A stretch of 64,000 nucleotides of DNA, taken from assembly GCA_947499565.1 (NCBI GenBank), contig CANMOV010000003.1, positions 663,981 to 727,980 of the forward strand, written 5' to 3'. Below the pieces are notes generated by a model. It was not told the DNA's origin. It saw only the letters and a program-made list of their open reading frames with translations, and searched no databases. The position numbers were made by a program, and so were the translations under genes. The stretch is from an uncultured Croceitalea sp. Its GTDB lineage: Bacteria > Bacteroidota > Bacteroidia > Flavobacteriales > Flavobacteriaceae. Positions 46,528 to 64,000 of the stretch are shown one piece after another. Every line of letters begins with the position of its first letter. Position 1 is the stretch's first letter.

Positions 46528-47517
46528 CTATCCTAAGATACGTATAAAGTCTTTTGCAAAGTAGCTCGCTATAATATTAGCGCCAGCTCTTTTTATAGCC
46601 AAAAGTTGTTCCATCAGCACCGCATCATGGTCCAACCATCCCTTTTCGGCTGCTGCTTTAAGCATTGCGTATTCACCAGAAACTTGATACACGGCCACCG
46701 GAACATCTACCTCGTTTTTTACTTCACGAACAATATCTAAATAGCATAGCCCTGGTTTTACCATAACAATATCTGCACCCTCATCAATATCTTGCTGCAC
46801 TTCTTTTATAGCTTCAAACCGATTTGCGGAATCCATCTGGTAGGTCCTTTTATCCTTAGGCACATTTTTAATAGCTACAGGAGCAGAGTCTAGAGCATCT
46901 CTGAATGGACCGTAAAAGGCACTGGCATATTTAGCAGAATAACTCATGATTCCTGTATCCTGAAAACCTTCATCTTCCAAAGCTTCCCGGATAGTAAGTA
47001 TACGACCATCCATCATATCACTAGGGGCAACAAAATCTGCTCCAGCAGTTGCATGTGAGATACTCATTTCAGCTAGTACCTCGCAAGTTTCATCATTAAG
47101 AATTTGACCTTCAGCTACAATACCATCATGACCATAAGATGAAAATGGGTCTAGTGCTACATCTGTCATGACCAACATTTCTGGACAAGCATTCTTTACT
47201 GTTTTAATGGCACGTTGCATTAAACCATCTGGGTTTAAAGCTTCTGTTCCCTTGTTATCTTTTAAATTGTCATCAACTTTCACAAAAAGTAAAATGGCGC
47301 AAAGTCCCATCCCCCATAAATCCTTCACTTCTTTTTCAAGAACATCAAGACTCATTCGATAATAATTTGGCATTGATGCTATTTCTTCTTTTATGCCTTT
47401 GCCTTCTACTACAAAAAGAGGTACTAGAAAGTCGCTTGGTGTAATTATAGTTTCTCGAACTAAATGTCGGATAGCTTCTGAAGTTCTTAATCTTCTATTT
47501 CTAATGAGTGGGTACAT
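46528..47517 (-). CDS. hemB: Porphobilinogen synthase, Mg-type
   Basis: 329 residues. It joins two 5-aminolaevulinate to porphobilinogen. The Schiff-base lysines are in MSYSAKYASAFYGPFR and VMVKPGLCYLD. The metal site reads DVALDPFSSYGHDG, without the three cysteines of the zinc form, so it should be Mg-dependent. It follows the IVS-like unit, which separates it from phzF and the rest of the hem operon. Confidence 0.96.
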   Translation of the reverse strand: MYPLIRNRRLRTSEAIRHLVRETIITPSDFLVPLFVVEGKGIKEEIASMPNYYRMSLDVLEKEVKDLWGMGLCAILLFVKVDDNLKDNKGTEALNPDGLMQRAIKTVKNACPEMLVMTDVALDPFSSYGHDGIVAEGQILNDETCEVLAEMSISHATAGADFVAPSDMMDGRILTIREALEDEGFQDTGIMSYSAKYASAFYGPFRDALDSAPVAIKNVPKDKRTYQMDSANRFEAIKEVQQDIDEGADIVMVKPGLCYLDIVREVKNEVDVPVAVYQVSGEYAMLKAAAEKGWLDHDAVLMEQLLAIKRAGANIIASYFAKDFIRILG

Positions 47518-47521
47518 TTCT

Positions 47522-47938
47522 TTAGTTTTAAGTATAAAGCTTTAAGCTTTAAAGCGATTTTTTGATAGTTTTTATTAAAGCAGCTAACATTTTTTTAATT
47601 TCATCGATTTCCGATAGCAACAGATTTGACTTTTCTTCTTTGATAAAACCTAGCTCTTTTGATACTAAAATTAGATAATCTAATTCATATGCTGATCCTG
47701 ATGAAATATATAGAAAGCGAACAAGTTCTTTTTGGGTTTCTCTACCGCAACCCTCTGCAATATTTGTTGGGATTGATAACACGGCTCTATTTATTTACGA
47801 CACCAAGCCAAATAGCTCTGATTTAGGATATGTTTGAGTTAAAGAATAAATAGTAACAACAAGCTTATGCGAACGTTTCCAAACTTGGTAGTTTTTATAG
47901 TTGGTCATAATAACTTAAAGCTTTAAACTTATAACTAA
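47522..47938. mobile_element. IVS-like unit: four-helix-bundle gene between terminal inverted repeats
   Basis: A 25-nt sequence at 47522-47546 returns inverted at 47914-47938 with 23 of 25 identical (core TAAAGCTTTAAG; mismatches at positions 7 and 13). Between them lies only one reading frame, a four-helix-bundle (S23-type) gene. The unit fills the space from 4 bp past the hemB start to 4 bp before the phzF stop, in an otherwise tight hem operon. Terminal repeats around an S23 gene are known from intervening sequences in 23S rRNA; here no rRNA is near. No target duplication is clear. Confidence 0.55.
47549..47908 (-). pseudogene. Four-helix-bundle (S23/IVS-type) protein gene with in-frame ochre
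   Basis: From ATG 47908 the frame gives MTNYKNYQVWKRSHKLVVTI, reaches TAA at codon 38 (47797-47795), and continues open with INRAVLSIPTNIAEGCGRE to the stop at 47549; 119 codons in all. In relatives the segment is SQIxRAxxSIPxNIAEG, so the stop replaces Gln (CAA to TAA). The rest of the frame, including the SGSAYELDYLI helix, is intact. The family includes the protein of 23S rRNA intervening sequences and Avd of diversity-generating retroelements. A GTG at 47782 could still start a 77-residue fragment. Confidence 0.8.
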
Positions 47939-47941
47939 GAG

Positions 47942-48730
47942 CTACACCTCTATTTCTCCAATTAAATAAGGAACCGCTTTCCCTGAAATTTTAACGCGCT
48001 CTCCTAAATACTCGCAAACAAGGTCTCCACCTCTTTTAGAAAGTTGTTTGGCTGTCATTTCTGTTTTTCCAAAAACTTTAGACCAATAGGGAGTCATTGT
48101 AGTATGTGCAGAACCAGTAACGGGGTCTTCTGGGATACCGCATTGCGGAGCAAAAAAGCGAGATACAAAATCTACTTTATCCCCAGGTGCAGAAACGATT
48201 ATTCCACGGCAATCTAATTTGTCTAATAAAGTGAAATTTGGTTCTATCTGTTCAATTTCTTCCTGTGAATTGTAGATTAAAAGGTAGTCTGTCTTGCCTT
48301 TTATGGTACGTTCAGGTGTTAAACCTATAGCTTTATTAATCTCTGTATTTCCTTGAATAGCAACTATTTTGTCGGATGGAAAATCCATAACCATATAATT
48401 ATCATTGGCTTTTTGAACAAGAAGTTCACCACTGCGTGGAGAATAAAAACGAATGGTATTTTCTATATGGCCATGATAATTATAAAGCACATATGCTGAT
48501 GCTAAAGTGGCATGACCACATAAGTCAACTTCTGTTTCAGGGGTAAACCACCGCAGTTCATAAGTTGCATTTTTTTGTACAATGAAAGCAGTTTCCGCAA
48601 GGTTGTTCTCTTGCGCAATTTTTTGCATTAATTGTGTGTCTATCCATTCATCTAGAATGCAAACCGCTGCGGGATTTCCACCAAAAACATGGTCCGTAAA
48701 AGCATCTATCTGGTAAATCTTCAATTTCAT
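47942..48730 (-). CDS. PhzF-family isomerase
   Basis: 262 residues, two similar halves of the diaminopimelate-epimerase fold. Marks are GGNPAAVCIL (about 18-27), the catalytic Glu in NNLAETAFI (about 45), DLCGHATLAS (about 70-79) and CGIPEDPVTGSAH in the second half. PhzF isomerises a phenazine precursor in Pseudomonas; most homologues have unknown substrates, and no phenazine genes are present here. It is 16 bp after hemF, inside the haem operon. Confidence 0.88.
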   Translation of the reverse strand: MKLKIYQIDAFTDHVFGGNPAAVCILDEWIDTQLMQKIAQENNLAETAFIVQKNATYELRWFTPETEVDLCGHATLASAYVLYNYHGHIENTIRFYSPRSGELLVQKANDNYMVMDFPSDKIVAIQGNTEINKAIGLTPERTIKGKTDYLLIYNSQEEIEQIEPNFTLLDKLDCRGIIVSAPGDKVDFVSRFFAPQCGIPEDPVTGSAHTTMTPYWSKVFGKTEMTAKQLSKRGGDLVCEYLGERVKISGKAVPYLIGEIEV

Positions 48731-48746
48731 ATTATAAAACTAAGCA

Positions 48747-49649
48747 TTAAACCCATTCTTTTGGATTTTTAAGAACATTCACTAATTTTTCTTCCGCACT
48801 GCCTTTTTCAGGATGATAATCATATTTCCACTGTACATTAGGAGGTAAGCTCATTAAAATACTTTCAATACGCCCATTAGTTTTTAAGCCAAATAAGGTT
48901 CCTTTATCATGAACTAGGTTAAATTCTACATATCGACCACGTCTAATTTCTTGCCAATTACGTTGTGTTTTATTGTATTCCAGGTCTTTGCGTTTTGTAA
49001 CAATAGGAACATAACTTTCTAAAAAACTATCTCCAACAGCTGTAACAAAATCATACCAGTCCTCAATGCTTGTTTCATTATTAGTTTTACAATAATCAAA
49101 AAAGAGACCGCCAATGCCGCGTGCTTCGTTGCGATGAGCATTCCAGAAATAAGTATCGCAGCGTTCTTTATAGGTTTGATAAAAGTCTGGATTGTGTTTA
49201 TCACAGGCTTGCTTGCATACTTGATGAAAATGATGCGCATCGTCTTCAAAAAGATAATATGGGGTTAAATCTTGACCACCACCAAACCATTGGTCTACTA
49301 ATGTGCCGGCTTTGTCATACATTTCAAAATAGCGCCAATTAGCGTGAACAGTTGGGACCATTGGGTTTTTAGGATGCAGGACTAGGCTTAACCCACAGGC
49401 AAAAAAATCGGCATCTTTAACACCAAAATAGTTCTGCATACTTTCCGGTAAAGCACCATGAACGGCGGAAATGTTTACGCCTCCTTTTTCAAATACATTA
49501 CCGTTCTCGATAACTCGAGTTTTACCACCACCACCTTCAGGTCTTTTCCAGATGTCTTCTCGGAATTTTGCTTTACCATCTATTTCTTCCAATTTCGAAG
49601 TAATTGTATTCTGCAACTGTTCTATGTACTTGTAGAATTTATCTTTCAT
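48747..49649 (-). CDS. hemF: Oxygen-dependent coproporphyrinogen III oxidase
   Basis: 300 residues. Marks are KGGVNISAVHG, FGGGQDLTPYYLF, the RGIGGLFFDY segment, RRGRYVEFNLVHDKGT and GRIESILMSLPP near the end. It decarboxylates two propionates of coproporphyrinogen III, using O2. Full length. The oxygen-using form shows that haem is made aerobically. It is 2 bp after the DUF6973 gene. Confidence 0.96.
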   Translation of the reverse strand: MKDKFYKYIEQLQNTITSKLEEIDGKAKFREDIWKRPEGGGGKTRVIENGNVFEKGGVNISAVHGALPESMQNYFGVKDADFFACGLSLVLHPKNPMVPTVHANWRYFEMYDKAGTLVDQWFGGGQDLTPYYLFEDDAHHFHQVCKQACDKHNPDFYQTYKERCDTYFWNAHRNEARGIGGLFFDYCKTNNETSIEDWYDFVTAVGDSFLESYVPIVTKRKDLEYNKTQRNWQEIRRGRYVEFNLVHDKGTLFGLKTNGRIESILMSLPPNVQWKYDYHPEKGSAEEKLVNVLKNPKEWV

Positions 49650-63645: not shown

Positions 63646-64000
63646 CTATTTTTCTTCATCTTTACAAAACGCATCTAGTTTTTCTTGAGCTACCTCAAAA
63701 CCTAGTAGTAGTGCTTTTTTCCATGCCTCACAAGCATCTTTATATTGTTTTAGGTTTTCTTTTGCATTTCCCCTATTATAATGAGCTTTGGCATAATTAG
63801 AATCTAATTTTATTGCTTTATTATAGTCTTTTATAGCCTTTTCGTGTTGATTTAGATTACTTTTTGCAACCCCTCTATTATTATAGATTTCTGCATCATT
63901 AGGATCTAGTTCTATTGCTTTGCTATAGTCTTTTATAGCCTTTTCGTGTTGATTTAGATTACTTTTTGCAACCCCTCTATTATTATAGATTTCTGCATCA
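63646..64000 (-). CDS. TPR-repeat protein, C-terminal part (5' end outside window)
   Basis: 117 residues to the stop at 63648-63646, open to the window edge. Three tetratricopeptide repeats of 34 residues are visible (YNNRGVAKSNLNQHEKAIKD occurs twice; then HYNRGNAKENLKQYKDACEA), then a capping helix WKKALLLGFEVAQEKLDAFC. It is a protein-interaction scaffold of unknown partner. Confidence 0.85.
   Translation of the reverse strand, partial: DAEIYNNRGVAKSNLNQHEKAIKDYSKAIELDPNDAEIYNNRGVAKSNLNQHEKAIKDYNKAIKLDSNYAKAHYNRGNAKENLKQYKDACEAWKKALLLGFEVAQEKLDAFCKDEEK
63822..64000. repeat. 102-bp tandem repeat inside the TPR gene
   Basis: Bases 63822-63898 recur without change at 63924-64000, an offset of 102 bp (34 codons, one TPR unit). 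The identity runs off the window edge, so more copies may lie beyond. Confidence 0.85.

Follow-up and report, generated by a model that had tools for sequence, protein, structure and literature searches.

A broken four-helix-bundle gene between inverted heptamer arms at the phzF-hemB junction of an uncultured Croceitalea: a possible decayed copy of a small mobile element

The stretch of DNA analysed here (the window, 64,000 nt of contig CANMOV010000003.1 from an uncultured Croceitalea sp.) carries, between a PhzF-like gene and hemB, a short unit in which a single gene of the family PF05635 (23S_rRNA_IVP; hereafter the IVP gene) is bracketed by an inverted repeat. From the last codon of phzF to the ATG of hemB there are 427 nt, the IVP gene is the sole gene inside them, and the unit occupies the gap, as an earlier annotation made from the letters alone (the sequence-only reading) had described. 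The locus is made up of the following parts.

47549..47908, minus strand: 23S_rRNA_IVP / four-helix-bundle gene (PF05635), disrupted by an in-frame stop (profile match, translation)
47795..47797, minus strand: in-frame TAA, codon 38 of the IVP gene (sequence)
47909..47941, minus strand: upstream arm of degenerate heptamers, in the sense direction CTCTTAG TTATAAG TTTAAAG CTTTAAG.., located between the phzF stop codon and the IVP ATG
47518..47551, minus strand: downstream arm of degenerate heptamers, in the sense direction ..CTTAAAG CTTTATA CTTAAAA CTAAAG.., overlapping the IVP stop codon and running up to the hemB ATG
47537-47552: period-7 array in the downstream arm, found by Tandem Repeats Finder (TRF)
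47522..47546, no strand: left half of the 25-nt inverted repeat
47914..47938, no strand: right half of the 25-nt inverted repeat
46528..47517, minus strand: hemB (ALAD), downstream of the element (PF00490)
47942..48730, minus strand: PhzF-like gene, upstream of the element (PF02567)
48747..49649, minus strand: hemF (coproporphyrinogen III oxidase), next upstream of phzF (PF01218)

The two halves of the 25-nt repeat are complementary at 23 of 25 positions (92%) and lie 367 nt apart. Shuffles of the window predict 0.00 matches to the left arm when up to 3 mismatches are allowed. When pairs of 60-nt windows separated by 380 nt were placed at random 20,000 times, the score of the locus (40) was reached by 12 draws, all of them on this locus, the best score away from it being 24; the repeat noticed by the sequence-only reading is therefore real. 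What that reading overlooked is that both halves are parts of slightly longer arms built of degenerate tandem 7-nt units, and that the frame between them, which it correctly took for one short four-helix-bundle gene, carries an in-frame stop. The gene matches PF05635 with an E-value of 1.2e-35 and 123.6 bits, one stop included (curated cut-off 33.8), and the portion downstream of the stop alone still matches with an E-value of 2.5e-21 and 76.3 bits; because of the TAA, the IVP gene is broken and the full protein is no longer encoded. With period-7 inverted arms beside an IVP gene and an own-arm score of 40, the feature belongs among the heptamer-armed IVP elements described below. Upstream of phzF and on the same strand are the haem genes HemF, HemE and HemD.

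The feature is inserted at the phzF-hemB junction, as is evident from sites without the element and from a scar. The hemB stretch was fetched from 29 relatives and included phzF in six of them, the other 23 being uninformative on the site. The phzF-hemB spacing, whose comparison had been put forward as a check of insertion, differs among these six: in four (G001, G006, G007, G033) only 9 to 53 nt separate the two genes, and these gaps have diverged too far for the insertion point to be fixed; one (G005) retains only arm-like ends and the end of the gene; and one (G002) has an orthologous element in which 1 nt is deleted near the end of the gene. The rnz junction of the same Croceitalea genome has an intact element directly before the ATG, where five relatives from the genus in which both neighbours can be aligned (G001, G002, G003, G004, G006) have a 4-nt stop/start overlap and no element; there the element supplies a new stop to the upstream gene. 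Inspection by eye revealed no obvious target duplication at rnz, short ATTTA stretches near both ends being perhaps due to chance, and the hemB site is too diverged for such a comparison. At the hemW junction two IVP lineages, just 24-33% identical, occur in different relatives, what this genome retains is a remnant of 146 nt, and in some relatives, among them G034 and G012, the gap is nearly absent. By eye, scars lacking the gene can also be recognised in other genomes, at hemW, rnz and metH. The supposition that such a unit is an ordinary operon gene whose repeats arose by chance would fit public records, which call these genes simply four helix bundle or S23 protein; it is contradicted by the repeat statistics and by the sites lacking the element, and we regard it as extremely improbable.

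Two observations on these junctions may be recorded in their own right. One relative (G007) appears to have two hemW junctions with different IVP lineages (L093, L255), and its assembly perhaps mixes strains. In the window's own genome, an IVP element (L002, G000:C2:599551-599865) stands between the two halves of a split MetH; the element is rejected as the cause of the split because relatives without it are split too (e.g. G002, with a 21-nt gap).

The loci on which the following statistics rest are not a random sample, and related sequences among them are non-independent. The survey of relatives yielded 199 PF05635 matches in 41 of 59 genomes, 150 of which were listed and 136 fetched, mostly in order of score; a set of 96 loci comes from 35 genomes, and a further set consists of the best 80 of 584 matches among titled genome records of many phyla. 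The Croceitalea genome itself has seven PF05635 loci with flank sequences that differ between loci, and their own inverted-arm scores are 40 at the window locus, 16 in the rnz copy and between 20 and 30 in the remaining five. A search of the genome that allowed up to 3 mismatches, of the kind proposed in the sequence-only reading, gave no third copy of the 25-nt end; no terminal sequence is common to the elements, because each element lineage carries heptamer units of its own.

What does recur is an architecture: a period of 7 nt, arms that match each other within a copy but not across copies, and a position mostly between co-directional genes. Across the 96 loci, the median inverted-arm score is 25 for a locus's own arms and 15 for arms mispaired between loci, and scores of at least 28 are attained by 41/96 own inverted pairs as against 5/96 own direct pairs, 2/288 mispaired arms, 1/85 pairs mispaired within a genome and 0/94 far flanks. 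At a lag of 7 nt both flanks show an identity of 0.45, and lags off the 7-nt series never exceed 0.35. The best 80 of 584 behave alike (own arms scoring at least 28 in 39/80, mispaired in 2/236). In a set of 216 loci, at least one heptamer arm is found at 153 of the 213 that can be scored (both arms at 81) versus 3 of 204 control pairs; the arms are complementary above the 99th percentile of mispaired arms at 83/216 loci, compared with 9/1073 mispairings, and 7 nt comes out as the best period for 64% of a set of 429 arms, versus 5% of 420 controls. When oriented, the 98 most periodic tracts of these 429 arms give the consensus A-W-M-A-C-T-N, whose information content is 2.35 against 1.93 (standard deviation 0.055) in 15 column-shuffled sets.

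Under a simple open reading frame (ORF) rule, both neighbours are co-directional with the IVP gene at 89 of the 96 loci, whereas three of the eight plasmid loci that were opened (L340, L341, L344) are antisense to both neighbours; gene direction is thus probably filtered by selection. Plasmids gave 28 matching records, and the eight opened loci showed heptamers by eye in seven and inverted arms scoring at least 22 in five, L341 having neither; phages gave no match. Among these plasmid loci, L339 and L342, both cyanobacterial, have the IVP gene between cas6 and cas4 in CRISPR loci (a neighbour in L342 is annotated as type I-D), and L339 has both arms in direct orientation. In a Nostoc edaphicum plasmid (L340), an antisense IVP element with GGAGTAG-type arms and a score of 63 separates two ribonucleotide reductase subunit genes.

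The antisense loci bear on the proposal that complementarity is kept for a stem in the transcript, which RNase III would cut so as to free the IVP message and leave the operon mRNA as two working pieces; the sequence-only reading had suggested such pairing of the ends and a cut by RNase III that spares the operon mRNA. The arms of the window element do pair in the predicted fold, but the fold of the whole transcript is no more stable than those of shuffled sequences (z -0.14), and G.U mismatches between arms are not in excess over A.C (90 vs 114, p 0.11, from 116 elements of the 216, in a test that had no positive control). Under another scoring the counts were 88 and 135 (p 0.002, 90 of the 96 loci), this lean to A.C not being significant under the stricter scoring. 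Arms that are direct in L339, an orientation antisense to both neighbours in 3/8 plasmid loci and the existence of single arrays without a partner speak in the same sense, and we consider such a role in RNA unlikely.

Among proteins at least 60% identical that lie in different gene contexts, arm similarity averages 20.8, as opposed to 15.3 (standard deviation 0.39) for permuted arms, a value that 0 of 2000 permutations reached (116 non-independent pairs); since related proteins in different contexts share arm sequence, arm, gene and arm seem to move together. In 188 comparisons between orthologs, an element's own arms pair better than arms crossed between copies 72% of the time, with mean scores of 24.8 and 18.2. 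The protein is usually kept, given that non-synonymous divergence (dN) is low against synonymous divergence (dS) in ortholog pairs: dN is 0.08-0.18 and dS 0.58-2.05 by a simple counting method (11 pairs, dS estimable in 9), and the two hemB-site copies give 0.119 and 0.82 over the first 300 nt. Decay nevertheless occurs by stop, frameshift and internal deletion. In-frame stops are present in 18 of the 150 listed rows of the relatives survey and in 9/216 of the loci kept, the latter figure being an underestimate because most stop-flagged rows and some contig-end rows were skipped when fetching. Stop codons in all three frames are enriched in the arms, which might have offered a reason for the period of 7; the enrichment is present on both strands, so that it is probably a by-product of the period, and this reason was set aside.

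The low dN is also what one would expect if the arms were regulatory, that is, if the IVP protein or another factor bound the heptamers and tuned the flanking operon, mobility being only ancient. In line with this, the same junction is occupied in several genera (the thiolase and acyl-CoA dehydrogenase groups) and elements stand directly before start codons, a position for which MacGregor suggested a translational role of TAACTGA heptamers (PMC4679880). The functions of the flanking genes are diverse, though, the same junctions show gaps and scars in relatives, and heptamer units change between orthologs, all of which makes the regulatory account improbable.

A further alternative has the unit carried passively, either by an ordinary transposon or by a reverse-transcriptase system resembling the diversity-generating retroelements (DGRs), the arms being the terminal repeats of the carrier. 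The inverted ends, the insertion and the Avd-like protein would all suit it, and the IVP-rich genomes G004, G017 and G020 do have one or two matches to the reverse transcriptase family PF00078. On the other hand, there is no common terminal sequence and no clear duplication at rnz, and PF00078 is found in just 16 of the 59 genomes and in none of the IVP-rich G000, G013, G014, G026 and G034, G000 being the window's own genome, which is 97% complete. Dependence on a reverse transcriptase is accordingly not supported, and, judged by end sequences, target duplication and reverse transcriptases, we give cargo status little credence.

The reading that we favour, with a confidence only somewhat better than even, is that a small mobile element consisting of a heptamer arm, an IVP gene and an inverted heptamer arm was inserted between phzF and hemB and has decayed into the present copy; the ends of such an element would be recognised by the encoded protein. 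Ends recognised by protein at the level of DNA are preferred since G.U pairs show no excess, the fold is no more stable than shuffles and reverse transcriptase is missing from several IVP-rich genomes; both the recognition of arms by protein and the manner of movement are inferred. The four-helix-bundle protein would treat its own lineage's heptamer arrays as DNA ends, recognising them and holding the two arms together, while host enzymes would place the unit, by copying or joining, in stop/start junctions, where insertion would be harmless. Gain and loss of heptamers, and their copying from one arm to the other, would take place in the DNA, and such turnover could keep both arms of a copy matched while separate copies drift apart. 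Within the host operon the arms may act as mere spacer, furnishing a stop for the upstream gene (as seen at rnz) and an A-rich leader for the downstream one.

A number of facts weigh against this reading. The rnz copy, which is the cleanest insertion, has poorly matched arms (score 16, the mispaired median being 15), and another copy (L001) scores just 20. By the test used, 60/213 elements have no heptamer arm, and 133/216 loci are at or below the 99th percentile of mispaired arms; the plasmid element L339 has direct arms, L341 has no clear arms, and the Coxiella heptamer has little beyond a CT/AG core in common with the consensus. Within the ortholog groups of argH, folD and thyA, arms crossed between copies pair as well as an element's own arms, or better. 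No transposition event has been observed and no target duplication recognised, and a catalytic domain is not known. Several elements occupy one junction across genera and therefore look vertical. Finally, the closest same-genome pair of proteins among the 96 loci is 64.5% identical, and one pair (L214 and L248, in G036) is 72% identical; as no recent copy pair is seen within a genome, movement would have to be rare, old, or between genomes.

Heptamer arrays also occur where the roughly 1.4 kb fetched contains no IVP match (L377-L394, in G009, G018, G025, G026, G031, G034 and G051); these are mostly single and reach about 20 units. In G009 and in G026 arrays of one unit are repeated at several positions, and an IVP element of G026 (L095) is built of the unit repeated there; these recurring arrays point toward solo arms, as a lead and not as proof. 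A strict heptamer pattern matched 20 of the 59 genomes against 12 for a backward control (230 vs 58 overlapping matches), and since the control also matches 12 genomes, this result too is a lead only. Separately, the window ends in a 102-nt tandem repeat (63791-64000, 2.1 copies, 94% matches) that reaches its last position.

IVP units with repeat sequences of their own in many bacteria look like a little-noticed family of mobile elements. Going further, the IVP/S23 genes across bacteria might form one class of mobile elements, whose ends are set by no fixed sequence but by an oriented array of heptamers (A-W-M-A-C-T-N), matched to itself and read by the element's own protein, whose members that landed in rRNA are the rRNA intervening sequences (IVSs), and whose solo arms are the many unexplained heptameric repeats of bacterial genomes; we offer this as a tentative generalization, to which we assign rather less than an even chance. 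S23/IVP proteins have no known function according to PMC4990558. Heptamer arms give them a testable partner, namely their own repeats, together with a unit of mobility, and IVP elements become a possible source of heptameric repeats whose role earlier authors left open. If the generalization were true, the fragmentation of rRNA, the architecture of operons and the Avd protein of DGRs would be connected. Among the matches listed for the literature on IVSs, IVPs, four-helix bundles and heptamers, which leave most subscription papers outside and were available in part, no link between heptamer arms and free-standing IVP genes was found.

In comparison with known systems, the element resembles insertion sequences and miniature inverted-repeat transposable elements in being short, AT-rich and intergenic with inverted ends, and differs from them in that its ends are not common to copies and there is no clear target duplication; the IVP frame is the only listed ORF of at least 60 aa inside it, no search of the genome for transposases having been made. 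With the known heptameric simple repeats it shares 7-nt tandem arrays that are mostly intergenic. The TAACTGA repeats, reported in Beggiatoaceae, Cyanobacteria and Bacteroidetes (PMC4679880), are a rotation of ATAACTG, which fits A-W-M-A-C-T-N; the GGGAATC type of Xanthomonas and Nostoc fits it poorly, and the Xanthomonas heptamers include convergent pairs (PMC4692102). Both the TAACTGA and the Xanthomonas heptamers may be solo arms. The text available from these papers shows no link to IVP genes: that of PMC4679880 contains no instance of 'four helix', '23s' or 's23', and that of PMC4692102 none of 's23' or 'intervening'.

To Avd of the DGRs there is a distant sequence relation, PF05635 having been said to resemble Avd, with homology suggested, in PMC10053308. 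Of the eight members of set A1, the sequences that were scanned, all match TIGR02436 and six match NF033474 (Avd; E-values of 3e-7 and, at best, 3.3e-9); the first member scores 30.7 bits, which is below the 80-bit cut-off of NF033474. The only solved structures related by sequence at an E-value of 0.01 are 2gsc (the S23 protein Xcc0516) and 2rld, and the Xanthomonas S23 protein is a homopentamer (PMC4990558).

The closest likeness is to the IVSs of 23S rRNA, with which the element shares the protein family (PF05635/TIGR02436), complementary ends (here 23/25) and a similar size (428 nt in Coxiella). It differs from them in lying between the protein genes phzF and hemB, and not in a 23S or 16S rRNA gene, and in being a broken copy. 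IVP ORFs are also known in rRNA insertions of bacteria of the candidate phyla radiation (PMC11270868). The Coxiella 23S IVS, as described in PMC4990558, encodes the same protein family and has a 28-bp terminal stem and tandem heptamers upstream of S23p. Together with the sites lacking the element and the many other PF05635 loci, these heptamers uphold the view, already taken in the sequence-only reading, of a free-standing, inserted relative of the rRNA IVS; despite a unit that shares little beyond that CT/AG core, they are the best bridge between the free-standing and the rRNA elements.
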